From Utricularia gibba (taxonomy: Eukaryota > Streptophyta > Magnoliopsida > Lamiales > Lentibulariaceae): DNA of 64,000 nucleotides. Where the stretch lies: the NCBI GenBank assembly GCA_002189035.1, contig NEEC01000004.1, forward strand, positions 5,084,001-5,148,000, given 5' to 3'. The notes beneath the pieces were generated by a model. It was not told the origin of the DNA. It did not search any database and saw only the letters and a list, made by a program, of their open reading frames with translations. Below, one piece after another: positions 2,745 through 63,509 of this stretch. Position numbers and translations under genes: made by a program. Position 1 is the stretch's first letter. Each line of letters starts with the position of its first letter.

Positions 2745-3735
2745 TCAGCGGATGAATAGAGCCATTTTTTTGATGAGGATCTTGGAATTTGTAGCTTGGG
2801 GATCAAGGGCTTGGAAGCAGTGCTCTTCCCCCTTGATCTCCACCGTCTCCAGGTGCCCCCTCCACCCGCTTTCCTTCACCTTCTCGGCGTAGGCCGCCGC
2901 CCTGGGGTGAACATGTCCTTCTCCGCCATGGTGACCAGCAACTTGGAGCACCCCAGTTGGGATAGGCTCGGGGCTGCGGCGGATATGGGGTTGATCAGCG
3001 GGCAGTCTATCCCGCCGGGGGCGTTGGGGAAGCACAGGTTCCAGACTCTGCAGGCCAATCTGTGGGGGTCTTTGTCGAATTCCCGCTCGATTTCGATGGA
3101 GCCCCAGAAATAAGGCTGAGAAATGATGGTCCCTGTGATTTTGAGGTTTCCTGGTAAGGGATTGGAGCCGACGCGCATGGTGAGATTGTGGGCGATGTTA
3201 GCTCCGGCGCTATCGCCGGCGATGTAGAGTCGGTTGAAGTCGCCGTGAGTGGATATCGAGGGGTCTTTTGCGATGTCGGTGTCGTCTAGAGCGTGGGAGC
3301 AGAGCCATTCCAGTGCAGCCCATGAATCCTCGTACGCAGCCGGGAGACGGTGCTCGGGGACGAGGCGGTATTCGACAGCCACGATGAGTGACCTAGATTC
3401 CGCTGTAAGAGCGTTCATGTACCGGCAATCTATCTCAGAAAAGACCGATCCAACGATGAACGCGCCGCCGTGGAAGTACAGCACGATCGGGACTTTTTCA
3501 GCGGGATCCGTCATTTCAGGGAGGAAGATCCTCGCCGGCGACATGGTGGTCCTGATGTCCTTAGACGACACCCCGGTTTCAGGATCCCTCACAGCGGGAG
3601 GAACATTCCGCGAAACCCCACCCCGCTCGAAAGTCCCGTCACTGTAGAGCTTGATGAACGGCGACAGGTCGTCGATCAGCTTCCTCGACTCCGCCCCCCG
3701 ACGCGCTCCCCGTTCACAGTTGCGGCGGCGACCAT
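2745..3735 (-). CDS. Carboxylesterase (CXE family) copy 1, two frameshifts
   Basis: A plant class I carboxylesterase of the alpha/beta-hydrolase-3 fold, the HSR203J/CXE group that hydrolyses small esters and includes 2-hydroxyisoflavanone dehydratase-like members. Single exon. The oxyanion-hole motif FHGGAF, the nucleophile motif GDSAGAN, the Asp of AEKDMF and the His of EEHCF are all present, so the catalytic triad is intact. Compared with copy 2 at 9432-10409, the frame breaks twice. One break follows the N-terminal MVAAATVNGERVGG, at a six-C plus-strand run (3694-3699). The other follows AEKDMFTP, at a four-G run (2904-2907). Adding one base at each restores alignment to the end (ILIKKMALFIR, stop at 2745). 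Either a recent pseudogene or two consensus errors. The start at 3735 is chosen because it matches the start of copy 2. Confidence 0.8.
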
Positions 3736-3777
3736 GGCGACTTCTGCTCCTCCTACCACACCCACATACTGGTTTAC

Positions 3778-3787
3778 CTTTATAGAG
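3778..3787 (-). promoter_or_regulatory. Candidate TATA box of carboxylesterase copy 1
   Basis: Reads CTCTATAAAG on the minus strand, 43 bases upstream of the chosen ATG at 3735. The spacing implies a very short 5' leader. The left end of the Harbinger element lies only about 160 bases further upstream, so the promoter beyond this box has been replaced by transposon DNA. Confidence 0.45.
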
Positions 3788-3945
3788 AGGGAATTCCTTC
3801 CAGCTTCCTGACCACATTTCCCGTACCTACCCCCAAAAGTATGCGGAACTGGGACCCACCTTACTGCATTGGTTACGTGTCTAAATAACCTCCTCATTCA
3901 TATTTTTTATTAATAAAAAAAACAGTTACTCAACTACCTCTTATC

Positions 3946-3962
3946 ATTGAGGGTGTTTTACA
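3946..3962 (+). repeat. Harbinger left end: target duplication ATT plus inverted repeat
   Basis: ATT at 3946-3948 is followed by GAGGGTGTTTTACA. It pairs with the reverse complement of the right end. The boundary is inferred from the joint match of the inverted repeat and the flanking triplet. Confidence 0.7.
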
Positions 3963-4409
3963 TTACTTATGATAAATTAACTTATAAGTAAGATTAAGTA
4001 GAAGTTAATTTAAAGTAAAAAATAAGTAGGAGTTGTTTGTTTTAACTTATTTATAAAATTCATAAGTAAAAGTTAATAGTGTTTGATATAACTTTCATAA
4101 TTTGTAAATAAAAGTCTAAAATACCCATATATTCATTTAAATGTTTTTAATAATATAATTTATATTTATTATTTTTGTATAATTATAAATCAATGTTTTA
4201 AAGTTATGTAACAAATTAATAATTAATTTTTTTTCATATTTTAATGTATTTATTAATATTTGTATAGTTATATGAATTGTAATATGTAATAAAAAATATT
4301 AACACAAATCTCATTCAATCGTAATAACATGCATAATAAACGATAGATTGAGTTATATAAACTCTGAAAACAACAATAGATAAACTAGACTTGATATTAT
4401 GAGACATTT

Positions 4410-5628
4410 TTAATTTATTCTACTAATTGATGCACATATTGCATTACGTAAAGCAGTTATATATCCATCTTGAGTTGATGATGCAAAAGCTTTTGCTACT
4501 GGTAGAGCTGTTTGAGGATTATATGGTGGAGTCCAATTATCAACTTCAAAACGTAAGAAATCCGGATCATTTGCATCAATTCTCTTGATAAAATTGCAAA
4601 TTGCCATAGTTGCTGGTACAATAAGTACTTGATCTTGCCATGAAAATCCCCAAGGAAGTCTATTAACCATGTCAAATTTTGCCTTCCATACTCCAAAACA
4701 TCGTTCAATTACAGAACGTAGCGAAGAGTGTCGATAATTATACATCTCTGTAGGATTTCTAACCCGTGGATTATCACGAAACTCTTCCAAGTGGTACCTT
4801 TGACCTCTATATGGTGTCAAAAAAAATGTAGTATTCATATACCCAGAATCAGCAAGGTAATACTTACCTGGTTGTGGCAATGGAAAATTATTTTCGGGTG
4901 AATGCATAACCCGTGATAATATTGAACTATCATGCATTTATCCTTCATATCCTGAAGCTACAGACATGAACAGCATATTGAAGTCGCATATTGTCAAAAT
5001 ATTCTGTGTGGCTTCACGGTATCGACCAAAAAAGGACGTCTATCTTCTTTTCTAATTCTCGCAGGAATATGAGTACCATCAATGGCACCAACCACATCTT
5101 GAAAATGAGGCCAAAATCGAGAATCATTTCTTATTTTTGCAGGGGGAGTCAACATATCACTCGTTGGAACTATAAATTCAGAAGCCATATTTGCACAAGC
5201 ATCAAGAACTGCACGAAAACTTTGACTTACAGTATATCCAGAACGTTGGAACCATTCTTGAAGCAAACGGTTACTACATTTTAGACCCATTGCCAAGAGA
5301 AACGTTGCCACTTGTTCCTCAACAGAGACTGTGCGTGTGGCTATTAAACCATAGCGTTCATATAGACCACTACATAACCTATGAAATGTTTCTCGTTCCA
5401 TTCGAAATAGTTGATATGACGAATCCAATGGCCTTCCAGTATACCCTTTAACCATGCAGCTCCAGATAACTCTCTATCTCGATAAGGCATTCTTACAAAA
5501 TCACATTGGTAAAATTCAAGAATGGATTGCGCTAGTGTCGCTATAACAGAGACTATTTCAGCATTTGGAGTCTCACCTTCATCTTGAGAATTATCGGTAC
5601 GTGGGGAAGAGTTGCTGGAAGAAGACAT
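4410..5628 (-). pseudogene. Harbinger transposase (DDE_Tnp_4, HARBI1-like), degenerate
   Basis: Encodes the nuclease of the Harbinger element. The N-terminus MSSSSNSSPRTDNSQDEGE starts at 5628. The protein then crosses frames near 5440 (between GAAWLKG and YTGRPLDSSYQLF) and near 5028-5033, a run of six A on the plus strand (between RKEDRRPF and GRYREATQNIL). An in-frame TAA lies near 4940 where the family has a Ser or Ala before HDS. The catalytic residues can be followed: first Asp in GAIDGTHIPA (codon at about 5080), second Asp in MHDSSIL, Glu in VIERCFGVWK. The three lesions make this copy inactive unless some are sequence errors. Confidence 0.85.
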
Positions 5629-5701
5629 GGATGCGTTGTGTTTGAAAATGATACATAGCCTTGATTTTATAGATGAAAAAGGTGGAATCTTAGTAAGAAA
5701 T

Positions 5702-5841
5702 CACATGCAATTGTCGTTGAAAAGCAAATACAGCTAATAAAGTATATGGAATTGATGCAGAAAACACATGCAATTGTCGTTGAAAAGCAAATACAGCTAA
5801 TAAAGTATATGGAATTGATTCAGAAAACACATGGAATTGTT
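5702..5841. repeat. 63-bp tandem repeat, two copies plus a partial third
   Basis: The unit starts CACATGCAATTGTCGTTG. Copies begin at 5702 and 5765 and are nearly identical (GATGCAG in the first against GATTCAG in the second), followed by a truncated copy from 5828. It lies between the two transposon genes, just upstream of the transposase start. It looks like an internal replication-slippage product. Confidence 0.85.
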
Positions 5842-5945
5842 ACGTAAAATCACATTCAGTCAGACATCCACATGAAATGGTTCAACTTTAAAGAAATCAA
5901 TGTTCTTACTATATTTCAAATTCACCTACTAATATTAAAAGAAAA

Positions 5946-7063
5946 CTACTTTAGATTAGCACTCTTATATGCTCTGATAAATGCCAACCTCTCTTCATTA
6001 CTTGTCATACTCATAAAAGCTTCACGATAAACAGTCTTGCCGAACGCCAATGCAGTAGCTCCAAACACACTTGGATCCTCTTGTGCTTCTGGAATTCCCC
6101 TCACTATATCTAAGCATTCTGCAATCGAGGGTACCTTTTGTCTTTGAGGCACAGATGAATAAGATCCACTCTTTAACTGATTTGTTAAAGCAGCAACTGA
6201 CTTAGCCAACTTTTCTCCTGTTTCTTTAATAGTTCTTCTTTGACGTTTGTTTCTCACATTAGCACTGCTCGCACCAACTTCCACACTTCCCTAAACATTA
6301 ACAGATTAGAAGTAAATTTATATAATAGTAAATTTATATAATATAGTAAAATAATTTAGATAGTAACATACCTGTTGTGGACTATCATAAAATGATGGTT
6401 GTTCATTCATTCCAATATCAATATTATTGAAAAAGTCATCATCTTGGATGTTTATGCTATCTAAGTCAACAGATGCATCACCATCATTAGTAGAGCTATC
6501 AACCCCTGTCGACATACGATAAGGCGCTCGTGGAGGGACCTTGCCATTTCCAGTATTCCATGCCGAATCAGCTATTGATGTCACTGGTGTGAAGATAACA
6601 TTTTGCAATTCAGAATAAATAGGTGGAGTGGTCTTGAATTTTTTGCATCCTGGCATCTCCTAGAAAATACAAAATAATTGAGTCATAATGTATTTATCAT
6701 TTATATATAAGTACAAATACAAAAAAAAATCACCTTAATCATTCTTGACCACCATTCATCTGTTCCGGTTATAACTCCCAAGTTGTCATCTCATCCACTT
6801 CCAGTTGTCTTTTGAAGCCTAATCCATATGGACCAATCTTTTTTCATTGAGTTGAATTTATTTTTCAACTGTTTCATCACATAACGACGCCCCGTCCTTT
6901 CATTAAACTCTTTCAAAATCCCATGCCACCCCTGAGAATTAAAACATGTTCCAAGCATATTATTTGCATAAACTTGATGTGCACAAGCTTCCAAAAATAT
7001 GTGAGTAGCATTTTCGTCCCAAGCAGCACTAGAAGTAGACGAAGATGGTACTTGTTTATCCAT
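5946..7063 (-). pseudogene. Harbinger Myb/SANT-like DNA-binding protein, nonsense mutation
   Basis: The second gene of the element; such proteins bind subterminal DNA and help recruit the transposase. Exon 1 starts at 7063 (MDKQVPSSS) and carries a Myb/SANT-like domain: WDENATHIFLEACAHQV, later GWHGILKEFNERTGRRY and QLKNKFNSMKKDW. A TGA at 6793-6791 replaces an expected Trp in GSG-W-DDNLGVITGTDEWW, after which the frame continues to a donor near 6733. Exon 2 (about 6662-6371) starts EMPGCKKFKTTPP. Exon 3 (about 6290-5946) carries the basic stretch RNKRQRRTIKE and ends SANLK. Apart from the one stop, the gene is well preserved. Confidence 0.75.
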
Positions 7064-7659
7064 GTGTTCCCTGCAAAAGCAACAAAACACTAAATTGCAG
7101 CAGCAAAATTAAAAAAAAAATAAATACTAAGGGATTGTAAAGCTATGCCTCAAGCCAAATCTATCTAACTGAAGAAGCAAACTGTAAAGAAATTTTGCTA
7201 GAATCCCATAAAATCTAAAAAGTGCTTTCTGCTTCCCTCCGCAGAACAGGAAGCGACACAGTCTTGTGTGACTGAAGAAAAACGAAAAAACAAAAGGCAA
7301 CAAAAAAATAAAATCTTGAAAACGAAAAAATGGGGTGGAGAGCAACAAATCTGGAACTTCGGAGGAGCTGGATTTGGGGAATTCCGTCCGCAAGGTTTTG
7401 AATCAAAAATAGAGAAAGCACACCCAACCCAATACACGTAGATTAAGGTGAGAAGTAAATTTTTTATCATTTTATATTTTAATATAAAGGCATATAAGTA
7501 ATTTCACAGTATTTTTTTTATTTAAGTTACAATTAAGTAACTATATACCTACTTTTAAAATACAACTTATAAACAATTTATAAATTATAACATATAAGTT
7601 AAAAAAACATAAATCTAATAAGTTGCTACTTATAATTTAGTTAAGTTATTTATAAGTTG

Positions 7660-7676
7660 TATAAAACACCCCCATT
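7660..7676 (+). repeat. Harbinger right end: inverted repeat plus target duplication ATT
   Basis: TATAAAACACCCCC is followed by ATT at 7674-7676, mirroring the left end at 3946-3962. Confidence 0.7.
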
Positions 7677-9431
7677 ATATGCCAACTGTTTTCAACAACA
7701 AAATTTTGAATCGATTGCTCTAACCGTTCCTAATTCAAATCAATTTCGTGATTAAATTCAATTTAATCCAAATCCTATAATGAACGATTCATTACACTTA
7801 GAAGTTACAACGTTTGGAACATATCTAGTAATGAGATGATTTTAATTGAATTTCATATTTAGTTACAGATAAATAATATATATATATATTATCTAATTTT
7901 TTATAAAGTATTTTTCTCGAAAAAATAAAACATAATGCCATGATAATTAGCTATCATATAAGAAAATATTGATTCACTATATTTAATGTCATAGCCAAAT
8001 CCATACTTTGTAAACAATCATGGGACAAACATCAATGAGGATGCTTAATTTTTAAGAAGTGGCGATACGTATTAAGAAAAATAGAAATTTTTTTCCTTAA
8101 AATAAAATAACATAAAATCATGAAAATTACATATCCATAACGCATAATATTATATGAATAAATTATAGATGGCCGCTCCTATCTGATCTTTGACAGATAT
8201 CAGTCTATCAATTGACGACAGCCTGCCAGAATACATTTTGGGCTCATTTTCAAAGACTGACTTACCATATTTGATTTTTACCCCATCAATATCAATATTA
8301 ATGTAATGAGATTCGAAAACCTCTTCAAGGAGTGTCCTCATAGTAAATTGGAGTTCAATCACGGTTTTTGAAACACCATATTTCTCATTTCCCATTATTC
8401 ATGTTTTGATGACGTGCACGTCATGACTATAAGAAGATGAAATTAAATATGATTATGGACAGAATTTAATTTAATAAATTAAAAAGATTGAGAGGACACG
8501 GTTCTTCACGCATGGTAATGACTCACATCAAGGGTTCCATGTACCGACACCTAATAGCTTGCGTGTTAACTTCCTATTGGTTGACAATACTCCCTGCGAC
8601 TTTTGTCGTTTTCGTCGCCCTTACGTTAGTACAACAGAATTAATATTTATTTTATTTATACTCGGTATTATTAACTAAAGTATCATTGCGCTTAATCGTC
8701 ACATGCCCAATAAGTTACGTCACATTTTTTAATGTCACGACCTACATTATTTTTGTAGTATATTGCTCGTTTTGAGTATTTAACACTCACATTTTTATGT
8801 TTTTATTTTTTGAAAAACAATCTTATACAAATTATAAATATATTTTTATTTAAATACGTATTTTTTTACTATTCATAACTAATGTTATATATCGTTATTA
8901 AATCCCTTATATTCTACAACTTTTAGACACTCTTATGCTCATTGTTTCCATATCCCACCATTCGCATGCTTATTGATTTAGTTATGATATTAAATATCAT
9001 GATTCATACTATTTATTATATTATTTACTTCAAAAATACGAATATCAAGATTTCATGTTCTTCATTTTTTGAAAAAAACCTTATATAAAATTAAAAGAAT
9101 CTTTCTATTTTAATGTATCATTTCCTTATTCATAATTAATATAGAATATTTTTATCAGTTTCATCCCCTTAATTTTAATTATTTCCAATCGTGACATTTT
9201 TTTTCACTTTTCAAACAGATTTGACTATATTTTATCTAATAAATGTATTTAAATAAATGTAAAGCATAATAAAACAAAATACAATTGAATAAAAATATTT
9301 TTTTAAAAAAAAAAACCACCATGAATAAAAAAAGGATTTTCTTTTTTAATATATTTTTGGATGAAAGAATTCAAAAGAAGATAAATATAAAAAGGATTTT
9401 TATTTCTTTTAAAATAGGTGCTTATTGTCTG
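7677..9431. other. AT-rich intergenic DNA between transposon and carboxylesterase copy 2
   Basis: About 1.75 kb, dominated by A/T runs. A minus-strand open frame at 8150-8395 (81 codons, starting MGNEKYGVSKT) has no domain I recognise and no neighbouring exon signals; it may be chance or a relic. A perfect 16-base palindrome lies at 8409-8424 and is listed separately. The last ~100 bases are the likely 3' flank of carboxylesterase copy 2. Confidence 0.5.
8409..8424. promoter_or_regulatory. 16-bp palindrome with ACGT core (bZIP-type site)
   Basis: ATGACGTGCACGTCAT is a perfect inverted repeat containing two TGACGTG half-sites, the type bound by plant bZIP factors (TGA, C-box and G-box binders). 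No gene start is nearby: it lies about 1 kb beyond the 3' end of carboxylesterase copy 2. Function is inferred from motif similarity only. Confidence 0.35.
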
Positions 9432-19222: not shown

Positions 19223-20001
19223 TCAAGAGTCCGAAGTGGGATGTGGTGGCTGCTGAGCCTGAGGAGGCCACATTTGCTGAGTTATGAAGGGGCGCGGCTG
19301 CTGGGCATAAAGAGCTGGATCAATAGGCTTCCCGACAAACATGCTCGGAACTCCAACTGAGGATGGGGGAGGCTGAGGAGGCATGTAATAGTAAGGAAGT
19401 CCTTCAGTTGGAGTACCCAAGGGAAGAGGTCCTCTTGGAATTGGAGCAAGCACCTCGTCCTTCAGGTCCTCCCTCGGCACGATGTCCACCAAGAAATCAA
19501 ATATGTCGGTCCTTGTAATGGCGGCGGCGATGTCATTTTTCTGAAGAGTCCTTCTTTTGCTCTCCTCGGTGTGATTCCATGCTCGTAAAGTCAGCTCAAG
19601 AATGAACATTTCGCAGGCTCGAGCGAAGATGACAGGGCTTCAGCGGATATCATTCTCACGTCTTCATCAGCTTTCATTATCTTCTTGATCCTTGCCAACG
19701 GCAAGCTGTGGTTCTTAAAGTCTGTGACGCGATCGATTTCTTCATACTGGTTAGCCCAAAACTGCTGGAGCTGTAGCTGCAATTGCTGCTGCTGCTGTTG
19801 GTGCACTTGTTGGTAAGCGAGTTGATGTTGTGCCATCTGAACAGCAGATGGGGCAGGAAGACCGGGGGCATGAGGAGATTGTGCTGAAGCCCCAGATACA
19901 GCCCGAGGGGCTCCTGTAACTAGGTTAGTTTGATACGGATTCATACTGAACAGAGCCTGGTTGGAGCTGCCTGGAACCTGTCCATTTTCCTGATGCTCCA
20001 T
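19223..20001 (-). CDS. NF-YC: Nuclear transcription factor Y subunit C (NF-YC9-like), one frameshift
   Basis: NF-YC pairs with NF-YB through a histone fold and then binds NF-YA or CONSTANS-type factors at CCAAT boxes. The coding region is intronless, as usual. The N-terminus ([15 protein letters not shown]) has a Gln-rich stretch, then the histone-fold core [19 protein letters not shown]. The frame breaks inside the fold at a three-G run on the plus strand (19635-19637). As written it reads SAEALSSS, whereas the family has [15 protein letters not shown]. One added base gives [12 protein letters not shown] and the frame then runs through [18 protein letters not shown] to the Pro/Gln-rich C-terminus ending HPTSDS. 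Everything outside that base looks functional, so an assembly error is likely. Confidence 0.9.
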
Positions 20002-20903: not shown

Positions 20904-20915
20904 CCTATATATATA
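20904..20915 (-). promoter_or_regulatory. TATA box of NF-YC
   Basis: CTATATATATAG lies upstream of the probable distal leader exon. It is the only strong TATA sequence in the 200 bases before it. Confidence 0.5.
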
Positions 20916-22770: not shown

Positions 22771-25225
22771 GGTGACGGGGGCTGACTTTTGGAATTTCAC
22801 TAAATTACCGGGTCGAATGACATAATCACAAAAATATCGGTGAAGTTGCATAAATATCTTCGGAAATGGGACCCATATACGTGCCATCCTTTCCGGTGTG
22901 CTCACACTGTGATGGCATGGACCAACCGGGGGCGCGGGTCCCACCTTTAATTTCCATAGAATAAAATAAAGTCAATTTAAAACACACAAACCTCCCACTC
23001 AATTATTTGGAACAATACTAGAGAATAAAAAATATTATTATTTTGTGGACGACAATATTTTGTAGCAATATATTTTTCATTGCAAAAAGAAAAAAAATCA
23101 TTTACATTATTTCAAAAATCAAAATATTAGTGCCCTTTTTATCTTTGTAATAAAATTCATCATGCAAAATGGGATCCATTTTATTGCACATAAAAATTGA
23201 GTGGCAACCAGAGGGGTTCAACAAGTTACCATGACTATGTTACCAAGCTTGCTTCATGACCATCTTAATACATTAATAAATCGAATATTCTATTTAAATA
23301 ATAATCTTAAAAATATAATTAAAATTTATTTAATTCGATTCAATATATTATAGAAAAGATTTTTAGTTAGTTTAGAAATTTTTTTTTAAAAATATCATTT
23401 ATGGGGAGATAAATAAATCGAGGAGGGGTCAAGAAGAAGGAGCGGGGCCCACCCAGTTTTTTCACTTTCAAAACCATGGTCCACGACCCTAGTTTTGTGG
23501 CGTATGAAAACCACGGGTGGAGCCACCCACCCAACAAAACTAGGGGCGGAGCTGAACCAGCCCCTCCACTATCTAATTTTGGTAATGAGTTTTTATCAAA
23601 AAAAGGGCGAGGTGTTGCAATGAAAAGACATTATAAATCTAAATTCACAAAATATAGTAATGTTTTTTAAAATTTTTGAAATTTGTATTTATTTTTTAAA
23701 ATTATTTTATAAAAAAGAAATAAAAATTAAAAGTAAACAATTTCTTATTTTTTCAAAAATAAATTTTATAGTATAATTTTAAAAATGTTTTTAATAAAAT
23801 TATTTTTATAATTAAAAATATTCTAAAATAAAAATATTTTTTATTTTTGAAAAATATAGATAGATTTTAAAAATTTTCCAAAATATTACTTATGTTTTCT
23901 ATTATGACTTGCATTAATTCTACGATATTATTCGCTTAAAACATTTAAATTTCATAATTTTATGCTTTCTAGTACAAAAAAAGACCTATTACAATAAGGT
24001 TTTTTTTATTTAAATAGATAGACTTTCATAATTTTATACGTGCTGACATTTTATTATCTTAAACCGTCAAAACGTGTGATGAATCCAATCCATGTATGTG
24101 TTGTCCTAACACGAAGGGGGTAGAAGTAAATGATGTGAGCATTTATTTAAAAGACTTAGAAATTTTTTGTCAAGATTAACAACGATCGATCGGGGGAGGC
24201 TGGATCCGGGCACGGGGGGCTACTAGGGGAGCCTAGTTGATTACCTCCTTTTTGGGGATCCTAATCTTTAGAAAATGGAAGTTGGGCCGTTTTTTATTCA
24301 AAAAAACACAACACGTCCCCTCCCCTATTTCTAGCCTACTCCACACCTAGGTGTTACCTACAATGATTCTAATATATATTTTTTATTTATTTATAAAGAA
24401 TAATATTGTTGAGGACGAAAATCACCACTGAAGTTAAAACCGACTTTAGGATTATGGGGTTCGCCAGATATGTCGAATCCAGGTATGGATTTGGTATTTT
24501 GTTTGGTGCGGTTAATGAAAATAAAGAAAGACAGATTTTTTATGTGAAAATTATCGGAAAACGGAAAAACCACGGAGTTGTCGAAATTCAACGTAAAATA
24601 TCTTCACTAGGTGGAAGTGGAGAAAATACAGGTTGGAGGGCTTCGGGTTGAACTCGTTTCTCTTCAGAATTTCTTTTACTTATAGAAGAGGTCGATCTGA
24701 CCGAATTCTAAATTCTGTAGATGTCAGTTGCTTTTTGTGACTGTATTGTGATCATACTTTTTAGATAATCATCGTCTGTTCTACTGTAATTCGACTACTT
24801 TTAAGACGGTATCATATGGCTGTCGCTGTCAAATTTATAACATATATCGATTTGTCAACCAACGCTATCTTATCATAGATACTTTTGGCATCTTTTCTGA
24901 GGGCGATTAACCGCCCCGATTTGTACCCCATCAAATATAATATTTTCTAATTCTTGAAAAGTATTATTTGGAAATTAAGTTTCAAAAAGCTATACCTAAT
25001 AAAGATTTAATAAGCATGGTCCTTGGCCGAAACAATGGTTCTATTTCGAGTAATTGAGTAATTAATGGTTGTATTTGGTAAGGAAATGAGGTCGATCGTT
25101 TTGGATAACGTGGCCTGCCTACCTGCTTAGTGGACCCCACCATAAAGACACGTACTTGGGACACGTCATCGCGGCATTTTTTTTACTGTTTGTGAGGCTG
25201 GTGATATTTGACTTTGGAAGATGGG
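22771..25225. other. Long intergenic region, AT-rich with small repeat structures
   Basis: About 2.4 kb without a supported gene. From 22960 to 23460 and from 23600 to 24170 it is A/T-dominated. A nested inverted repeat occurs at 23487-23545 (listed separately). The stretch 24180-24350 is GC-richer but shows no coding signal. A short segment near 24400-24650 is open on both strands and may be a repeat relic; I could not assign it. Confidence 0.4.
23487..23545. repeat. Short foldback (inverted repeat with nested stem)
   Basis: CCCTAGTTTTGT (23487-23498) is perfectly complementary to ACAAAACTAGGG (23534-23545). The intervening 35 bases contain GGGTGG followed by CCACCC, a possible second stem. 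It could be a foldback or MITE remnant. No target duplication was identified. Confidence 0.5.
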
Positions 25226-26265
25226 TTAATGGGGCGAATTACAAGACCACCCCTGGGGACGTAATATCCGGTAGGCGGAAACACCGCCGACGGCTCCTAC
25301 TACGGGGGCAGAAATGTAAATCCATAAGCGGTCGAATCTCCAGGAGACGAGCGCTGGTCCCAGAGACCTTGCGGGATTCATCGACCCCCGGAAACAGGCC
25401 TGTGAATGAGATTCCAGTTCAGGTCTCCGGCAGTTTTCGACTGTCGGAATCGGAGAATTTTACCCGGAGATCAAAACGCCGAGCCCGATTGCGATTCCGA
25501 CGATCAACCCAGATAACCGCCCCAGCTGCAGTTGAACACATTTTGTTCACGTTGAGAAAAAATAATTGACTTTTTGGGGGCGTGGTAATGGCTTACGTTT
25601 TCGAATTCACTGTACAAGGATGTGATCAGGAACAGGACGATGAAGGTTGCAATGAGCTCCACCTCGAAGGCTGCGGCGCTTCCCTGTAACGGCCTTGTCA
25701 CCATCATCTTCTCCGGTGGGACACCGTAAACTTGCTTCCCGACTAAAGTAGACACCACTGCTCCACAAACTTGTGCAGTGACATACAGGGGAACCTTCAG
25801 GGATACAAAAGGAAGCGTGTAATGAATTCGTCTTGTCACCGAATAGGAGCTTTGGAGATGGAGACTTTTACATGACGCCATGGAAACGGGCCGACGAGGG
25901 CAAAAGCGAAGGTGACTGCAGGATTAACATGAGCTCCGGAAATGGAGCCAATGGAGAAGACGATAACTGTAACTGTTAACCCGGATGTTGCTGCGTACTC
26001 CAATAGCCCTGTTTCGACTCCATGAATCGCATGTTCGCCATGATCCCGTAGATGCAGAACATAAGAATGAATGATCCCAATGCTTCTGCCAGTACCTGAG
26101 ATTGTGTTTTCAGTTTCATCAGTTTGCTTACAGGTTTTCCCTCCTCATTTCATCCATATCGCTCACCTTTTTCCAAAGGCTCGAACTTGCAGAGATGTGC
26201 ACCGTCCCAGAGTCCGATTCCTCATCGTTTCTGGCTATGGAGGATTTAGAAGCAGGGAGATCCAT
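25226..26265 (-). CDS. NIP7-1: NIP7;1-like aquaporin (boric acid/metalloid channel), two frameshifts
   Basis: Five exons: 26265-26167, 26095-25872, 25794-25597, 25525-25464 and 25399-25226. NIP7;1 is a nodulin-26-like channel, associated with boron supply to anthers in Arabidopsis. Both pore motifs are present (SGAHVNPAVT and SMNPARSLGP), as are VPLYVTAQVCG, FEVELIATFIVLFL and LWIYISAPVVGAV. Two single-base gaps break the frame. One is near 26024-26030 (IMANMR then IHGVETGLLEYAATSG). The other is at the plus-strand CCCCC run 25385-25389 (PVSGG then SMNP). With one base added at each, exon phases close and total 759 bases (252 residues). The short N-terminus before the first membrane helix is poorly conserved, so the start is less certain. 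Confidence 0.82.
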
Positions 26266-29029: not shown

Positions 29030-30538
29030 TCACATGATGCTGCAGCTCTGAGTGTTTTCGTCGCTGAACATTGAGTAGTCGTCGCCCCGATCGTCCGGCC
29101 GGGGCGGCGGGTAGTAGTACATGTGAGGATGAGGCATGTAGTTGATTGCCGGCGGCGCCCGGGCGTAGACCATCGGCTGGAACCTCTCGTTGCCGGTGGC
29201 GCGTTGGGCATTCATCATCATCGCCGCGTATTGTTGCGGCTGGTGGTATGGGTTGCCGGTCATCGGATCGCCGGCGGAGGGGGCGGAAAGGATGGGAGGT
29301 TTGGGATTCGGTTCATTAGGGGATGGGCCATGGCCATGTTCCCCATGCCAGAGGATGCATTCATGGGCATTATGTTTGGCATGCCATGGGGTCCATCAAT
29401 CATGCCCTTCTTTGACCCATTATTACCTAAGAAAATGGGAGCCCCACCGCCGGCAGGGGCGCCGTGCTTGCCCGGGAACCCATCGCCATTTTTGCTCTGC
29501 GGCGGCGGACCGCCGCCGTCTTTCCCACCCTTGCCCTGGTTCTGATTCCCCCCACCAGCGCCTTTCTTGTCGTCCCCGCCGCGGAAATTGATGGGAGCAG
29601 GGAAGTTGGCTCCTTTCTTGGGAGGATTCAACATGTTCTTCATCATCATCTGGGGAGCATTGCTCGCTAATGGCTTCATTTTAGGTTCAATCTCATCCTC
29701 ATCCTCGAGATCATCATCGTCCTCATCGTCATAGTCATCGAATTCATCATCAGATTCAAGCTCATCATCGCTAAAATCTTCCTCCTCTGGCAACATGAAC
29801 TTCACAGACTTCTGATCTTTGCATTTCCAGGAAGTTTCAACTGGGGCATCTGGTTCTTTGGATCTTGAATTCCCTTAACCTGTTGAGGATTGATTAGTCC
29901 CTTTGGAGGCTGATTCTTGTTGTTCCCACCACCGCCATTTTTCCCATTTCCATTTCCAATTTGCAGATTCTTCATCTGGTTCATGTTATCAGCACTGCTG
30001 GGCTTAGCTGCACCCCAAATCTCTGCGAACTTCCCATTCTTGTTGAGCTTCTTAATAAGTGTAGCTGGATCAACATTACCCGAAACTGTAACCTTCCCCA
30101 GCTCTGCATCTATGGTAGTGGTATACACACCTATCACAAAACGATGACAAGTGTGAAAAAAGGGGTATAAAGATCTCTTTTTTGACCAGTCCATTTTTCT
30201 CATCACAGCGATTAATTACAAAAATAAATCAAGATAAAGCATTTATAATCCTTACCCTCAATCTTGTGCAAGGTTTTCTTCACTTTTTGTTTACAGCCTT
30301 CGCAGTGAATATTGACTTTGAGTACACATGTCTGCAGTACGAGCAAAGCCAGAAGAAGATGTAAAAGCTTTACGTTTTAGGCACTCAACAGCATGAGAGA
30401 CGAAGCTACCAGCAGAAATAAAAAAATGACCAACGGCAGACACATTTTGCAGATAAGATTCAAGAAAAACATAAAGGACAGAGAAGAAGCAGAAGAAGAA
30501 GCTCTCACCTGGATCTTCAAGAACTCTTCTTTACTCAT
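29030..30538 (-). CDS. Heavy metal-associated isoprenylated plant protein (HIPP), two frameshifts
   Basis: Three exons: 30538-30509 ([10 protein letters not shown]), 30331-30256 and 30130-29030. HIPPs carry an HMA metal-binding domain and a C-terminal prenylation box. Here the HMA fold reads [17 protein letters not shown] (CxxC site) to [19 protein letters not shown]. Then come Asn/Gly- and Lys-rich linkers, a strongly acidic block ([20 protein letters not shown]), Gly/Met-rich segments and the end QSCSIM, a CaaX farnesylation site. Two single-base gaps interrupt exon 3: at TTT 29818-29820 (GNAK then [10 protein letters not shown]) and at GGGGG 29279-29283 (FPPP then [10 protein letters not shown]). 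Both are mononucleotide runs, and one added base restores the frame at each. The gene is otherwise normal. Confidence 0.88.
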
Positions 30539-33230: not shown

Positions 33231-35908
<2,678 letters not shown>

Positions 35909-38313: not shown

Positions 38314-41300
38314 TCAAAAATATATAGACAAGATCTTGTCAATCCTGCTCTGCACAACGTTACACCTATTCAACACTTCATTTAACCTGTCATCCTCTTT
38401 ACTGTGTCGCATCCTCCTCTCATTGTAGGTTTCTTGTGCAACTGAGTTGTCCGTACTTGTTGAGACTATGTGCCTCTCTTCATCCCTCATCAAGAAGTTG
38501 TCTTGTAAAGTTGCAGAATGAAAATGATCGGGGGCAGGGGCTGATGAGGGCCTATGAGCTTGGCCCTCGTCGAGATGATCTGTTGAAAACCCACAGGCAA
38601 CAAGTTGAATCTGTTCATCCAGCGATGGATGAGCAACATGAGATATCCGTGAAACAGCTTCTTCCTCTGAGATACCCTGTGATGAATCACAACTTTGGGC
38701 TAGGATGTATGTCGACAATCCCGCACTTGAAAGATTTGTTAGCCGCCAATTGTATAGCCTCCGGAAAATCAGTGGCCACTCTGGAATAATATAATACTTG
38801 TTGTTATGAAGCTCCAGCCTGGTGAACCTTTGAACAAGCATTCCTGACTCAATTCTGGCAAAACTAACGTCAATCATCCTGCTGGTTTCTGTTAAATAGC
38901 GGGATATGCAACCTTCCAGACGCTGTTTCTGGCTCTCAAAATCATCTCCGGTGTCTGCACCCTTAGCTAACCAAGACAAGTCATCTAACAGGATTGGAAG
39001 CTTAGAACTGCTAAATGCATGTTTCAGTTGTTCAGTTTGTGAGAAGGAGCTCCACCCCACGCTTGGCAGGAACCATGATGCATATTTGTACTCTTTACTG
39101 GACTCATCAAGGAGCTTGATTTCAGGGCTTGGCCAGCCTGTGGGGTTTGCTTGAGCCGCAGCAGATACATCCTCCATCGATAGATCCAAAGCCTTATTAA
39201 AGGCTGATATGCAGTGGTTGGGGCTCGCCTTATGGTAATCAACCTCAACAAGAGTTTTCAGGGTTACGGAGTTCAGATGGGAAAGCGCTAAATCACGTGC
39301 CTTTGTTTCCGAGAGAACAATTTGTAGAGGTGACTCATTAGCCAGCCATTTCAGCCCTTCTCTAAGGCATTTGTCGCTGAAAAATTCATTCCACTTCTCC
39401 ATCCTGTTGTCTCTGACAAAGGCTATGTGAACCTTAGCTACCCTTGATTCCTTGATCTCATAGAGCGCTAGAGCCTGAGCTAGGGTGGAAGAATTCAAAT
39501 TATATGCCTTGGAGTCGCTCAGGATTAGAAGGGGCAAATTCGAACCCGAAGGCAGTGACATAATAAGCGCATGGAGCTGTTTCTTCTGGAACTCCAAGGG
39601 GACATCTTCTGCAGAAAGGAACAGAACAGCACTTGCCCCTGTATTTACATTGTCCAAACCTTCCGATGTACATTGCCGCACAGCTGATATGCAACAGGTT
39701 TCCTCATGATCATTTTCCACAGAAATCCAGCTTCTCCATATTGCCACGCCTGGGAATGATACAAGAAGATCTCTCTCATCATCGTTGTTATCAGGAAGAA
39801 GCTTCTTCTTTAGCCATGCACATGAAGCTGGGACTGTATTCTGAAACCCAGTATGGAATCCATACGAAACATCTGGAGTGCACAACAGCAACTTCCAGCA
39901 AAGGCATTTAGATCCCGGATTCTTCACAAGAAGTTCTGATGCTATCAAATCAGCAGGATTCAAAACAGACATTGATCGTTCCTGAATTTCATGTCTCTTG
40001 ATCATGCAATGATCAATGTCAAATGAACCAGCACCGGAGGGTTGCTTTAGGGAGAAGATTTGGAAGGCAAAAAAAAAGGTGAGGTTAAATCATAGTAGCT
40101 AAAATATGTAGAAAAAAAGGAGTCATTAACAGACAGCTCCTAAAAAATTCCAAAGCTGTATAATCGATAGCTTCCAGGGAACTCACATTTTCAAATGTCC
40201 AGATAGGTGGCCCAAGTGACAGCAGCTCCAAGGCAGAATTTGCAGCCAACAGCTTACGCTGGCGCAACTCTCTTCTGTGTTCTGCATGGCGCTTCCATCT
40301 CCTGGATGATGAAATTAGCACATTCAAGAAAATTTTAATCACTAAAAAAGATAGGAGAGGAAAAAATCAATACCTTAGAGTTAGCTTAAGTTTAGCTTCT
40401 TTAATTTCATCACATGAACGTCTTGCCTCTGTATCAGATGTATCTTCCTCTTCTATGTTCGTGGCTTGTTCTACATCTTCTATAACATCATGTTTATCCA
40501 AAAATGATGGCGCCACAGGTTCCACAATACCAATCGGGAGAGTTGAATATTTTCTTTCATATTCCACTCCATGTGCGCCAGGTGCTCTGACTTCCACCTC
40601 GGGTAGAGTTGATCTACTAAAAGAATTCCTAAACATAGGATTGTACTCAGGTTGCCCGTATGAATCCCTTCCTCGTGGTTCAGTGGTGATGACACCAGAG
40701 GTATCCAAACTAGGAGAACCTGATACAACTATTGGAACACCTCCCCAATTTCCGCATCTTGCCTCGGGAGAGCAGAATTTGTCCCAAGTGCTAATTTATT
40801 AGGGCTGCTCTTAGGGGAGACAATGCTTGAAAAATCCAGCATTTCCTCGTCTTGGACTGGAGTAGAGTTCACAGATTTAGCAGAACTTGGGATTTTGGAA
40901 ATCATGACATGAGCTTTCCTTTGCTTGATTTCTTTGACTTCTTTGGGTTGGGGCTCATTCAGTGAAGAATATAAGACATCGGTTACCATATCACTTGACC
41001 TTTTTCTTTCAACAAGTTTAGAACGTTTGACAGGAATTTCATAATCAAGATCAACATACGCATTTTCTTTCACCAAGTATGGTTCTTCAAAGTCCCTCAC
41101 CGAAAATCCAGAACATCCCATAATCTCTCCTATATCCTCCTCTTCCTTTTAAAAGAAAAAAGCACCAGCTTGAGAAACTTCTGAATATTCCCTATACAGA
41201 GAGAAAAGAATATGAAATCACATATGTACCTCTATTCCAAGCCATTTAGAAACATGGCTGATTGGAATTCCCTGGTTCATTTGGAGACCACTGTGCAAGG

Positions 41301-52919: not shown

Positions 52920-55900
52920 TTAATAACAAAATTCCCTCTTCATGGCCATGGATGCTTGGATTTCTTCAAGGGTTTTCCCCTTCGTCTCCGGCACAACCAT
53001 CGCCACAAACACCACCGTCGCTCCGCAAAACCCGGCGAACATTAAGAATGTGCCTGAATGAAACTCATCAACACCAACCACACACACAAAAGGTTCATAA
53101 TCAAGGTATAAAAGATTACCAGTAGAGCTCCAGTCCATTAGGAAGTTGAAGGTGAAGGAGACCACCCAAGCTCCCAGCCAGTTCACCAGCACAACCATGC
53201 TCCCTGCCACGCCCTTCAAGTCGATCGGAAAAATCTACAACAACAATATAAGGTGAACTTCCTAACACAACATGAGGTACTGCAGATATGAGCCAAGTCT
53301 CATGTTTGGTACAACTTTTGAAAACAAGCAACACTAATAATCGAGCAGTGACAAGTTACCTCGGACATTATCACCCATGGCACAGCTCCCATGCCGATGG
53401 AGAAGGATGCGATGTACACCAGAACTCCTGAAACTCCCATCATGGGAGCAGCCCATTCAAGGCTCGAACTTCCATCCTAGTAATAACAATGACAACAAAA
53501 AGTTCTAATGGTGGAAGATTAAAAAATTATATTATAAAACTGGGAGATCGTCTGAGAGTTACCCTAAGGTAAAAAGAAGCCCCAGCCATTGCACATCCAA
53601 TGCATGTTCCAGTAGCTGATACCTGAGGTGGTCGATTGTTATATGCTTCAGATATTATCTTCATCTTTGGATTCTGAATTTTAAAACACTCCCTTAAACA
53701 TATACTCACCATGAGAAGAGGCCTCCTTCCACATTTATCCATCAGCATTGCTCCAACTATAGTTATGGGCACCTGCGTTTAATCCAGAAGACAAGAAATT
53801 CATTTTTCTACTTTAATTCTCATTCACAGCACAGCAAACATGCATCTAAAGCCATTGAGATCAACCTGAATTGTTGCATAAAGAATGGTACCGATTTTCG
53901 CCACAGAAGTAGATCCTACAAAATCAGTTCTTGAGTTGAAGTAGAACATAGTCATGTCGAACCATTTGAGTTACCAGCTTGGGTGAAGATCTGAGTAGAA
54001 TAGAACCCGATCCCATTTATCCCCCCAGTTGCTGTAAAACCATCAGCCCCACACCAATCTGCCATGAAGAAACAGTGTGTATGAATCATGTATCATAAAC
54101 CAAAACACCTACATCCGGAAAAGGAGCAAGGTAAGGAAGTTGGTTTATGGGGTATATCCATTTCAGTTTAAAACTCGGATACAACAAGGTGAACGAGCTC
54201 TTACAACCAGAGGACGAATATTCCTGGCACTGAAGAGGTCTACAACCCGAGTTCGTGGGATCTCCTTCAGAAAATCTACGCTGGACTGGATAACATGCCA
54301 CCAACAAAACAATAAAAAAAAATGTTGATAAACAGTTTATATTTACATTTCTCCCCACCTGAATTTCAGCAGCTTCTGAAGAAATATCAGCATCCTTTCC
54401 TCGAAGCCTCTGGAGAGCAGTTCCAAATTCCTTCTCTCGCCCCACCTTCGCCTACATCAAGAAAAGCACACACATGCAGACATATTTTTCGGATTTCTAA
54501 TTTAATAAAATAAATATCATGATCGGAGCGTGGAGAAAAACTCACCAGCCACCTTGGAGATTCCGGGATAAAAAACAGACCTAACAGAAGCAGAACGCAA
54601 GGCACCAGCCCTTCCATTCCAAAAAATAAAAAAAAATCAAATTAAAATCTTATTTAATTTATTTTTTAATTTAATCGAAATATGTCATCCAAATTAGGAC
54701 TCACCGGTTAATGCCAACATTCTCCATGTAACGAATGTTCCCAGTACATACGCAACCGATGATCCACAAACAATCATAAGCTGTGGAAATTAAATTCACG
54801 TGATTATATTTTAAAAATATTTATATAATTATATTTTTTAAAAACTTTTATTTCACGTAATTTTTCAAAAACATATCTAAAAAGCAATAATGTTTTAAAT
54901 TATAACTATATAATATGTATTTACTTATATTTAAATAGGTTACACTTAAAAAAAAGGTTATAGAATCAATTTAAACTAATCTCACATTGATTATAAATAA
55001 AAAAAAGAAAAAATTAAGTAAATAATCATATAAATCTTGTATATAAACATCAAATATATTATAATTTTAAACATGAACCCACATCAAATTTATAATAATA
55101 AAATAGTTAAAAATTGTACCTGATTGAGAGTTGTGAGCCCACCCGAAGGTGCTTAGGTGCTATTTCTGATATAAATACCGGGACCTGTCACGTTTGTTAG
55201 TTATGGGAAAAAAACATTAGGATGATTATTTAATAACCAAATGCTATCATTAATAACAGCGGGCCCCATTTAGGCAAATTCCGCTGTCAACCAGCTGGAA
55301 ATTGTAATAAATAAATAAGTATATAAAGTAAAATATATTTTTTACCACATAGGAGAATATTCCTATTCCATATCCCGCAGAGAATCTCCCCAAGTCGAGT
55401 GCCCGAGCTCCCTTCATGAATCAAACTGTGAATTTTATAAGATTCACCCGATACTTTTTACCTTTTCTTTTTCACCATTTACCTTGGCGAAATAGACTGA
55501 AAGCCAACCTATTATGCAGAAAACAGCGGATAGCCGCATCGCCTGCTCCCAGGTGAAAAAACAACGTTAGTCACTGCCTCCAATCAGATGAAATGGATGT
55601 CTTTTTTACCCTCTTGCGACCGGTGAAATCTGAGATTTTCCCACTCGAGACTGCGCCGAGCATAGCTCCGATGGTGAGTATGGATCCAAACATTGAGAAC
55701 TAAGAGCAGAGAGGGCAACAGTCACCCCATGTTGGAGTCTGCGCTACTGCTTTTTCACGAATCCTGGGCTGAAAAAAAACAGATACCTCGGATACCGATA
55801 AGCTGAAATCCCGAATGATGGCGTACTGGGTCGGAGAGGAGTAGCCGACCTGCAAGGAAGAGTGAAAAAGGCTCACAGTTGGAGGAAGAAGAAAGGGGTG

Positions 55901-56050
55901 TCGTGCTGCGATTCGATGCAGTGAAACTTACGCATGATCCGAATTGGAAAGATCCGCAGACCGCGACGAGAGTGCTCAGCAGAACAATGGATATGGAGCC
56001 ATTGCTGTGGCCCCGAGAATGGGCCTCTGCAGATCATCCTCATGAGCCAT
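52920..56050 (-). CDS. ERD6-like sugar transporter (MFS), three frameshifts
   Basis: About 17 short exons from 56050 ([12 protein letters not shown]) to the stop at 52920, the exon-rich structure of the ERD6-like group. These are mostly tonoplast monosaccharide transporters exporting sugar from the vacuole. Recognisable blocks in order: [67 protein letters not shown] (in two exons), [62 protein letters not shown] and [13 protein letters not shown]. Single-base gaps occur at TT 56002-56003 (GATA then NGSISIVLL), CCC 55142-55144 (HLRG then GLTTLNQ) and CCCCCC 54021-54026 (LQQLGG then INGIG). All are in mononucleotide runs, and all splice sites look good. Confidence 0.9.
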
Positions 56051-58270: not shown

Positions 58271-60273
58271 ATGGATACTCAGCTGCTGGAGATCCATCCA
58301 CGTGAACTCAAGTTCTTATGTGAGCAACTTGCTATTTAGAAAACAAAATGATTGCAACCACATTTTTTTATGCATAATTACTTTCTTTTTTGGGTTTCCC
58401 TAGTTGAGTTGAAGAAACAAAGTTCGTGTGCTGTTCATCTCACTAATCTTACGGATCAGTATGTAGCTTTCAAGGTTCGGAATACTCTGACTTGTATATA
58501 TATTTTTTAAGCATGTAATGCTTGTGATGTAAATAGACTGTCCCTCAAATATTCTTTAGATTAACAAAGTGTTTGTACAACTCCAGGTAAAGACTACGTC
58601 ACCAAAGAAGTATTGTGTCAGGCCTAACGTCGGTATAATCAACCCAAAGGCAATATGCGATTTTACAGGTGCTTGGATTGAGCCATTGTTCAGCACTCAG
58701 TTCATTCTTTTTGCCTTTTTGGGGGCTTGGAAGAGATTTTTCTAAATCTTAGCATATATGTTGGTGTCTTGTATGTTTTTAATAAAGCAAATGAGAAGGA
58801 TGTTACCGCACCCAAATGCTAGATGTACTAATTTCTGTATTTCTGGATTATGGAAATTAGATTTCTTACTTACAGGTTTCATGTTTACTTACCAGATATC
58901 TGTTTGATATTGTTCCTAGATGACTTATTTTGTAGATACAAGTATCTGTTTTAGGACATCTTTTGCATTTGAAAAAGTTTCTATCGGATCTTTTAGGAGT
59001 GGATCTTTTACTTAACAATCTTGCTGCTGACAATGGTATGAAAGAATTGCTGACTTGAATCCTTTTACACAGTCACCATGCAAGCACAGAAATCAACTAT
59101 GCTGGAGTGCAAGGACAAATTCTTGATTCAAAGCACAGTGGTGCCATATGGCACAAACGAAGAGGATATTACATCGAGCATGGTTGGAATTTTCGCTGCA
59201 GTGCACTGCTGCTGAAATTGATTTTCGTTTTTTTTTAATTTCTCCTTTTTTTTTTTGGCTTCTGGTAGTTTTCCAAAGAAAGTCGAAAGTATGTTGAAGA
59301 GACTAAGCTGCGGGTGGTTCTTGCAAGTGAACCTAACTCTCCCTCAATGCCACCAGCTGAGACTGTCGTGAACGAAGAGTCTGTTTATGAAAATCTGAAA
59401 CCGAAAGAACATTCACCTGTTAATGGAGTTAATAAGCAAGAGCCATCATATGAAACAGTGAAGCCGAAGGATAAATTGCAGAATGGAGCTGAAAACTTCC
59501 CTCCGGATATGGTATTTAAAATCTTACGTAGTTCTACATATGTTTTGGTGAATAGGTGACAAGATCAACGTTTCTTGTAACTGATAATGATATGCTTTAA
59601 TTTTCTCTCTCTCTTTCTGGATGCAGCTGCTTACAAAAGTAGAGGAACCTATAAATGACGAGAACAAGGAGGAGCCCAAATCGGTAAATGACATCGACTG
59701 TAAGAAGTTGGTGCCTGCTGATAGTGAGGAGCTTCACCGTGACCATGGAGTAAGACAACTAAGTGATGCAGCAGAAACCAAATCAGAGCTAACAATTGAT
59801 GCTGAAGAACTGAGATCAACCATTACCACATTGACATCCAAGCTATTAGAGGTCAGCTGTGTGTAAACCTGTGCATTTGACACTTCTGCAAATGCTTTTG
59901 TTTCATCATCCCCCCCCCCCCCCCCCCCCCCCGATGTCTTCTGTGTTAATTTTCTCCCTCCTACACAGGCTGAAAACATGATCTTGAGGGTGAAAGAAGA
60001 GAAGATCAGCACCTTAAATCAGAACAAAGCACTCCAACAAGAGTTGGTGAGTTAGTCTTCGTACGGTCCTCAATATGTCTGTCCAATCTGTTTCCCGAAT
60101 CCTGCCCTTGAGACTTCGCTATTATTCTCACACAGGAAACCGTGGCTGGAAGGATCAAACAGGAAACTACAAACGAAAGGAGAGTTGCACGAACAGTTCA
60201 AGTTGGTTTCCCGCCCTTGTTCGTCTGCATGGTTGCACTCATCTGCTTTTTCATGGGCGCCTACATGTTCTAA
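58271..60273 (+). CDS. VAP27-type vesicle-associated protein (MSP domain)
   Basis: Eight exons: 58271-58319, 58404-58474, 58587-58668, 59073-59182, 59269-59511, 59627-59851, 59969-60046 and 60136-60273, in phase, 331 residues. VAP27 proteins are tail-anchored in the endoplasmic reticulum and tether it to the plasma membrane and cytoskeleton by binding FFAT motifs. The N-terminal MSP domain reads LLEIHPRELKFLFELKKQ, VAFKVKTTSPKKYCVRPNVG and FLIQSTVVPYGTNEED. A long acidic linker has repeated ENLKPKE/ETVKPKD units. A coiled coil follows (DAEELRSTITTLTSKLLEAEN...). The C-terminal anchor is FPPLFVCMVALICFFMGAYMF without a lumenal tail. The linker length points to the VAP2 subgroup. Confidence 0.92.
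59910..59932 (+). repeat. Run of 23 C in a VAP27 intron
   Basis: Lies in the intron between exons 59627-59851 and 59969-60046, about 36 bases before the acceptor. Confidence 0.85.
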
Positions 60274-60613
60274 TCCTAAGGTACTGGGCTAAAGACTTAC
60301 CATTCGATAATCCAGGGATGCTTTTATACATGCCAGACTATTTAAAGGTCGCTTTGGTTAGGATTAGCCATCCTGTGCAGTGTGATGCTTCTTTACTGCA
60401 AACCCGTCAGATAATCGTATGTAACACAACTCATTTTAACCAATAAATGGAAATGGAACTTTCACATCACTATGCTGTATGTGTATTTATGTACATTACT
60501 TTATTACACCAAGCTGCTCGATTACAATACCATACGTATGTGCACAACATAGATACTGACCGTGCATAGTTTTTGGATGGCTCTAGTGCGTGGAAAGTGT
60601 AGGCCTGTCTTGT
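60274..60613. other. Convergent 3' intergenic region
   Basis: About 340 bases between the VAP27 stop and the NHX stop. It holds both 3' UTRs. No gene seen. Confidence 0.5.
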
Positions 60614-63509
60614 TCAAGTTGGCTCCTCTTCTTCTTCCGGAAGATGAGGCAAGCTCTGTTCAGTTGGCGAACCGGGTACATATGGAACGAAGCCACGGCC
60701 ACCAAAAACCGGCCGCATGATTGCATTATCGAACTTTCTCCAGTAGTAGTGGACCGTTTTAGAAGGCTTGGTTAGGAGCATTCTCAAACTGTGTGGCCGG
60801 ATTATGCTGCGAACGCCGTCGGAATTGATGCCGTTGTCATTGAAAAGCTCTGCTACGGAGTCCTGGCCTTCACCCAGAAGTGGCACGACGAAGGATTTTG
60901 GGGTGTCTGGGTCTGCAGAGAGCATTCTGTTCAGATGTTTAGATGGAGGAATCAAGAACATTATCATAGGTTTCGTCAGCAATCCGAACACCTGCAGCAA
61001 CAGAGGTATATCAACATAATAACGAGATCCGAAGAGGATGGGTGGAGGGAAAGATTTCTAAAAAAAAGCACAATGTCTCACCACTGTGCTGAAGAGAACA
61101 ACCGTTATGGTACTAGTGATCATGATAGCGCTCCCCTGTTGCTGAGTATGTCCTCCTGTAGTGAACTGTATCACCAGAAGAGTGGAGAAGTTGGTTTTTT
61201 CTGTCAAGAAGATGACCCATATTTGCTGAACACATGTGCAATTGGAAACGAAATTTTACCTGGTTGTACGCCAGAGCCATTGAGACGGCGCCTCTCATGA
61301 GCCCAGCCCACCATATAATGACCTGAAGTTTTTAGGACAATTCACTAACTATCCCAACTTACAGTTAGAATCCTACGGAAACCAGGATCTTACTTGCTGT
61401 CTGAGTGAGACTTTCTCAGACTGCTTCTTCTTAGTCAAGTTTGACAGGAATGACAATGGGAAAACGAAGGCAGCCCTGCCTAACAAAACTAGTCCCAGGA
61501 GAGTTGCACTTGTCACAGCCATGGTACTCAAGCTTTTACTGACGACACTCCATTTCTCAATATCTAAAGCATCCATCCCAACATAGAGAAATATGAAGAT
61601 CTCAGCAAGAAATGACAATGTTGCAAATGTGTGCCTGCATCATGTTGATTTGACTATTAGCAAGATGTCAGATTTCATATGCAACACTGGACTAGATTCC
61701 ACGGTCATCTTACTTGGTCGTAATTCTTGAATTTTCAGTGACATTATGCCAGGTATAATGGGACATTACGATGCCACAGAAGAAAACCGTTAAGATACTG
61801 CTCAAATTTGAAAGCTGCAGGAAAACTCAGATTAGAACCGTTAAAAGCCGCATACGTGTTATCAAGGAGCTTACCTCAGCCAACATGTATGAAAGGTAAG
61901 CCATAAGCATCATGAAGGCTACCTCAGGATCAGTGGAGTGCCTGCAGCTCATCCAAAAAGTTCAATATAATAATATCTAAACAAGTGCTGATCTTAAGAT
62001 CTAAACTCAAAACAAAACTGGGGGCAACAACGGAAATAAATCTCATACGATCATAAAAACAGGGCAACAAGGCCACCAACCTTCCAAAATAAAGTGTCTT
62101 GATAACGTAGGCGCTAAGCAGTCCAGCCTAAGATAAGAGAAAACAGTCAGGAAGAACCTAAATTGGGCAGCCCTCACAGAAAGACGAGAGAGAAAAGAAC
62201 TCACAGCAACCCCAAAACTGTGCTGGTCGCAAACAGGTAGAAAAAATTTCCAACTAGCTTGAAGGCAATTTCGGTATTGATGTGAGAGAGGTCAAAATTA
62301 TGGACAGCATTGAAGAGCACCACAGATGTTGCGTCATTTACAACACCTTCTCCGAATACTAGACTGTATAGCAATGGTGTTTCGTCTTGACTGAGAACCT
62401 ACAGAATTAAAATCTCAAGTAAAAAATTTAAACGTCAAAATTAAAAGAGATAAAGTTACCTGCAACGTGCAGACTGAATCTGTGGCAGCAAAAATTGTTC
62501 CAATGGCTGAAATGAAAAAAGTTCAGGAGATGATATGATGCGTTTCAACTTGAGAGATGTGCGACAGTGAAGTATATCATACCAAGATAGTCTCCAATAG
62601 ATAAACCAAGATCCATTTTCCCGAAGATGGCAATGGATCCTAAGAAATGGATTTGAAATTTCAGAAACCAATACTTTGTAGAGATCAAATGAAAGAACAC
62701 AAAAACCATGGAACATTATAGTTTCCATACCCAGGGATATCACTATGAAAGATATCAACGTCCCAACTGCACCATAGAGCATTATAGTTGAGAAGTTGCG
62801 GAAAAAATGTTTCTTCTTAACCTGGAACCTGATCAAAGATTGACCCAAACAAAAGAAGTTAAATTAACCACAATGTCATGATAGAAGAAAATGCGAACAC
62901 TCTAAAACAGTGATATACGATAACTCTGAATGTTGAACAACAAGAATGTGGAAAACGTCTGGGATATTTCCAACTAATTTCAAATGATGAAACGGGATGA
63001 TTTTCAGTGCACATGAAAGAATGTAAGCATGAAATTATATTATAATGGAAGAAGGTAATACAAAGGGAAAACCAAGCAGCTGTATCGTAAAGCATATGCA
63101 GTGTCTGAGCTACGAAAAATTACCCCGCATTAAAAATGATAGGCGGTAGCAAGTAAATGAAGAAAAGGTCCTCGCTGAATACCAAGAGGTGCGAGCTTTT
63201 CCCGCCACTTATCAACAGAATAACAACTCCTGTTCCTACACCCTTTTTGGTAAAAAGCAGTGGTCATTTGTAGTTGGCGAGAAAAATATACTAAAAGATA
63301 CAAGTCTGTGCGTGCACAAAAGCTTGGCAGCATACCACTATGAGAGCTGTTATAGATTCATTTAACCATCGATGTTCTTCAAGTAGATGACCAATGACAA
63401 TACATCCAGAAAGAAGAGTGATAAATAAGGTTATCGACACCACTGAAGCATAATCAGATGTTGACACAGCATTCATCATCTCAAGCATTGATCCCGAGGT
63501 GAACCCCAT
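60614..63509 (-). CDS. NHX: Vacuolar Na+(K+)/H+ antiporter (NHX1/NHX2-like), one frameshift
   Basis: Thirteen exons from 63509 (MGFTSGSMLEMMNAV) to 60614. NHX1/2-type antiporters load K+ and Na+ into the vacuole in exchange for protons, controlling pH, turgor and salt tolerance. The amiloride-site segment LFFIYLLPPIIFNAG, VKKKHFFRNF, the ion-site region FAATDSVCTLQVLSQDETP and FGEGVVNDATSVVLFNA, then FFCGIVMSHYTWHNVTENS and LMRGAVSMALAYN are all present. So is the cytosolic tail with VHYYWRKFDNAIMRPVFGGRGF, ending LPEEEEEPT. At CCCC 62210-62213 a single base is missing (TVLG then VAAGLLSAYVIK); with it, the exon ends at a good GTGAGT donor. The start codon is the ATG at 63509; the frame upstream has only non-ATG codons. 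Resembles class I vacuolar NHX. Confidence 0.93.

Follow-up and report, generated by a model that had tools for sequence, protein, structure and literature searches.

A 64-kb stretch of the Utricularia gibba genome (C413:5084001-5148000, hereafter the window) contains seven genes whose reading frames break and resume if single bases are added, which raises the question of whether these genes are damaged in the plant or in the assembly. The first-pass annotation had listed twelve such one-base shortfalls and had read them as consensus errors. On re-analysis, all twelve were of the -1 class and nine were recovered by alignment to plant relatives: the carboxylesterase copy 1 (CXE1) C-terminus, NF-YC, both HIPP sites, both NIP7;1-like sites, two ERD6-like sites and NHX (Table 1). 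Protein alignment gave only -1 class shifts in the seven named genes.

The assembly totals 100.09 Mb in 516 contigs. Proteins were aligned to DNA using a purpose-written aligner that permitted GT/GC-AG introns and changes of frame and penalised stops. Protein searches with the window genes listed plant relatives, with Lamiales frequent; among the 120 matches listed per search, none was a near-identical relative. The names SAC3B, MAP kinase, PP2C and TSJT1 and the CCT subunit identities are presumed or were assigned by eye, and the remaining gene names were taken from those of the matched proteins. P0007 was excluded as a reference because it appears to skip exons; it had placed a +2 at 62503. 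For NHX, reference P0013 gave an additional -1 at 62500, beside an intron that P0013 places differently. Each HIPP site was aligned as -1 with some references and as +2 with others, which is the identical frame class.

Table 1. Frameshifts in the window, with the sequence or interval that fits each and the position at which protein alignment placed it
Feature	Position	Strand	Sequence and basis	Aligned at
CXE1, -1 near C-terminus	2904..2907	-	GGGG on + strand; 2 of 2 protein references	2905-2914
CXE1, inferred -1 near N-terminus	3694..3699	-	CCCCCC on + strand; start codon basis only	
NF-YC, -1	19635..19637	-	GGG on + strand; reference P0002 (1 of 1)	19638
NIP7;1-like aquaporin, -1	25385..25389	-	CCCCC on + strand; P0121, single reference (1 of 1)	25383
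NIP7;1-like aquaporin, -1	26020..26035	-	Interval; best fit CC 26020-26021; P0121, single reference (1 of 1)	26035
HIPP (HMA-domain protein), -1	29268..29295	-	Best fit GGGGG 29279-29283 or adjoining base; 5 of 5 references	29268-29295
HIPP, -1 at G-C step	29821..29822	-	5 of 5 references and one-base gap relative to C4 copy	about 29822-29831
MAP kinase gene (presumed), +4	35019..35026	+	TTGATTGA; alignment to paralogue L088 and translations	
SAC3B-like gene (presumed), inferred -1	40743..40746	-	CCCC on + strand; two successive open frames	
ERD6-like sugar transporter, -1	54021..54028	-	CCCCCC 54021-54026; 6 of 6 references	54025-54028
ERD6-like sugar transporter, -1	55142..55145	-	CCC 55142-55144; 6 of 6 references	55145
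ERD6-like, inferred N-terminal -1	56002..56048	-	Best fit CCCC 56011-56014; ATG off-frame relative to aligned exon	
NHX sodium/proton exchanger, -1	62210..62213	-	CCCC on + strand; 4 of 4 references	62206 or next exon edge 62126

The shifts might be no shifts at all, if introns, alternative starts or alignment slips mimicked them. Three of the twelve sites (the CXE1 N-terminus, the ERD6-like N-terminus and SAC3B) were placed from start codons or open frames and are weaker than the other nine. At the CXE1 N-terminus, the fitting ATG, common to the tandem copy CXE2, sits in a different frame. SAC3B contains a 779-base stretch with 139 open codons in one frame followed by 142 in a second frame; any frame was open for 139 codons in 5 of 2000 shuffles. 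The NHX site adjoins a splice site, and the first version of the aligner did not recover its shift. Against this reading, the nine aligned sites recurred with the references tried, and four sites (NF-YC, NHX and both in HIPP) were one-base gaps relative to close copies in DNA alignments. Mimicry of this kind is extremely unlikely, and at the NF-YC, NHX and HIPP sites the DNA alignments contradict it.

The close copies lie at C4:3448182-3477960, where DNA searches found parts of the window duplicated in order. This block matches the right part of the window (NF-YC, a TSJT1-like gene, HIPP, PP2C, a VAP27-like gene and NHX), and at the four sites its copies are one base longer, with GGGG for the GGG of the window in NF-YC, CCCCC for CCCC in NHX, and one additional base at each of the two HIPP sites. 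Similarly, the C-terminal site of CXE1 was a one-base gap in DNA alignment to CXE2, its undamaged neighbour, which was shift-free with both of 2 references. No one-base gap was found in PP2C (aligned to L089) or in the TSJT1-like gene (aligned to L093). The window also holds two elements (about 23630-23905 and about 24405-24937) that occur in many copies across the genome, at about 72-88% identity.

Comparison with the copies and references also changed some placements. Three sites fitted better elsewhere than had been proposed. In HIPP, a site assigned to TTT at 29818-29820 proved, relative to the C4 copy, to be a gap at the adjacent G-C step; the NIP7;1-like site put "near 26027" fits a CC instead; and the ERD6-like site put at TT (56002-56003) fits a CCCC better. 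For the NIP7;1-like and ERD6-like sites only the interval is fixed. Both sites that had been assigned to T runs thus had a better fit at G/C positions, and all twelve shifts are compatible with the loss of a G or a C, some of these placements being intervals only. This restriction to G/C is an addition to the first-pass annotation.

The exons examined contain 175 G/C runs and 180 A/T runs of three or more bases. Of the twelve shifts, nine fell within G/C runs three to six bases long, whereas A/T runs held none. Runs of at least three make up 16.8% of the exonic sequence examined, which gives nine of twelve a nominal p of 1.4e-5, and placement of twelve of twelve at G/C had a nominal p of 2.2e-4; both values overstate the significance, since within its interval a shift is free to move towards a run. 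The window also contains poly-C tracts of 20 bases (35857-35876) and 23 bases (59910-59932), and no other G/C run in it exceeds 7. Poly-C tracts of at least 18 bases (575 overlapping matches genome-wide) were considered as a separate class of artefact and rejected, as runs of exactly 13 bases are also common (129).

One-base losses at G/C runs were also found outside the window. As a control, 16 alpha- and beta-tubulin genes (20,484 coding bases, identity at least 0.89 to references that had been made from two of the genes) were aligned. They were taken from 21 tubulin-family loci; four poorly aligned loci (L056, L058, L060 and L061) and a pseudogene (L065) were left out of the rate. Twelve of the 16 genes were shift-free. 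The remainder gave four shifts, on C412, C255, C1 and C414, every one a -1 that fits a C or G run, for a rate of 0.20 per kb. The excluded locus L056 has a -1 as well. In a second control, 20 regions were fetched, of which 19 were CCT-family chaperonin genes, and 10 of these, forming five close pairs, were compared; outside the pairs and the comparison lay L085, which covers a match with 542 codons in one open frame, and eight other loci. The twentieth region was a tubulin-like pseudogene, L086. The ten copies contained three -1 shifts at G runs (on C321, C328 and C413) and one -2. The rate of -1 shifts, about 0.30 per kb, is rough because its denominator, 9,933 bases, comprises family-match bases only. 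Shifts of the error type were thus spread across contigs and across genes of unrelated function. The rate in the window (12 in 15.6 or 25.5 kb, the coding length being estimated) exceeded the control rates two- to threefold, with a nominal p of 0.013 to 0.17, and is to be read with the fact that the window was chosen for its shifts.

We read the broken genes as sequencing mistakes because the same type of gap recurs outside the window, in genes for tubulins and chaperonins, which supports the earlier interpretation. Judged from sequence, the twelve -1 shifts taken together almost certainly represent consensus errors of long-read assembly, in which short G/C runs would have been called one base short; each single site is a probable case. 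Noisy single-molecule reads would be reduced to a consensus, and during this step short runs of G or C would lose one base. The genes themselves would be whole in the plant, and the reads would be expected to show the longer runs.

Two further lesions do not fit this reading. The first-pass annotation had described the shifts as running in one direction throughout, which was correct for its twelve sites and incorrect for the window as a whole: an eighth shifted gene, the presumed MAP kinase, had been missed. Relative to its paralogue, this gene carries a four-base tandem duplication (TTGA) that shifts the frame, in the sense opposite to the twelve, and involves no homopolymer. The duplication does not represent a run-length error, and may be a genuine mutation. 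The second case is a CCT-family copy on C321 (L079), which has one -1 and one -2. The -2 is not a run-length error, and L079 may be a duplicate undergoing decay instead of an error.

Real decay of this sort could in principle account for the twelve shifts also, if redundant genes in the window had died recently by frameshift after whole-genome duplication. The duplicated block on C4 would fit such a history, and true pseudogenes are present in the genome. One is the alpha-tubulin pseudogene L065 (C413:5267839-5268186 region), 120 kb from the window. Another tubulin-like pseudogene (L086, C1:5059605-5059932) has a stop and a frame change. The window genes resemble decayed copies such as L065 in that their frames are broken. 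They differ in the kind of lesion: L065, at 79% identity, has seven shifts of mixed class (-1, -2, -1, -1, -2, +1, +1), whereas the twelve in the window are uniformly -1. When 19 -1 shifts and 2 others were compared with the 3 and 4 of L065, Fisher's test gave p = 0.02. In addition, no duplicates of ERD6, NIP or SAC3B were found among the matches listed in DNA searches, the C4 block included, which also speaks against this reading.

Coding constraint bears on the same question. Across six of the affected genes, 2,111 codons were aligned and contained no in-frame stop, a count made with an aligner that penalises stops. Differences in NF-YC, counted at first, second and third codon positions in the family frame, were 1/3/15 before the shift and 0/0/8 after it, and those between CXE1 and CXE2 were 49/38/111 before and 10/4/16 after. 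The bias towards third positions therefore persists past the shift in both genes, which argues that they are still constrained. In HIPP the bias was weaker (12/11/25, 22/24/37 and 15/10/19), a point in favour of decay, and the HIPP copy on C4 has exonic gaps of its own, of one and two bases. Because of the weak bias and these gaps, HIPP, alone among the genes, could be decaying. For the twelve shifts together, recent pseudogenization is very improbable, and consensus error remains the preferred reading.

Constraint downstream of a shift would also be expected if the short runs were real and expression restored the frame at G/C runs, through RNA editing or ribosomal frameshifting. The uniform sign and the single base class of the shifts would agree with this. 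On the other side, the runs are longer at the matching positions of copies in this genome, and no shift is needed for 12 of the 16 tubulins. The present case further differs from programmed frameshifting in that the shift site is not conserved: the references read through it, and the C4 copies of NF-YC, NHX and HIPP have no shift at these sites. We know of no system that restores frame at G/C runs in plant nuclear genes. Restoration in expression is accordingly hardly credible, and we give scarcely any weight to a broader form of the idea, in which G/C runs would have contracted throughout the genome of the plant and been tolerated through frame restoration at the level of RNA or the ribosome.

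Losses of this kind have been described in a bacterial genome. A review table (PMC5793159) lists a PacBio assembly of U. gibba made with HGAP (88x coverage, contig N50 3.4 Mb); the assembly studied agrees with it in size and contig number and is probably the same. For Enterococcus faecium ATCC 700221, sequenced by PacBio and assembled with HGAP, a passage of PMC4888979 gives 561 single-base homopolymer deletions left after three Quiver corrections; division by about 3.2 Mb yields 0.18 per kb. Both assemblies lack single bases in runs, and at a similar rate (0.18 per kb there and 0.20 per kb in the tubulins here). They differ in evidence, since the deletions in E. faecium were shown by Illumina reads, according to that passage, and those in U. 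gibba are inferred from homology. The same passage of PMC4888979 states no preference for G/C, and the fit to G/C is a feature of the present shifts; in the literature searched for it, such a preference of these deletions was not found stated. The twelve shifts are very probably a familiar type of artefact, and one whose signature is useful.

The published truncation of U. gibba DCL3 was considered as a further instance of the same artefact. This was not supported: in PMC8333044 the truncation is reported to be backed by RACE and transcripts. In the assembly, C213:2761967-2762970 encodes an RNase III pair with no Dicer_dimer match nearby, in agreement with the truncated DCL3 described there.

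With some 0.2 shifts in each kb of coding sequence, about one gene in five would be truncated in automatic annotation, as extrapolated from 16 tubulins and 10 CCT copies. A simple filter follows from the signature: a single -1 that falls in a G/C run, within a frame that is otherwise constrained, is suspect, and mixed lesions are not. Claims of gene loss, truncation or pseudogenization for this compact genome that are made from the assembly alone would need reads or cDNA.
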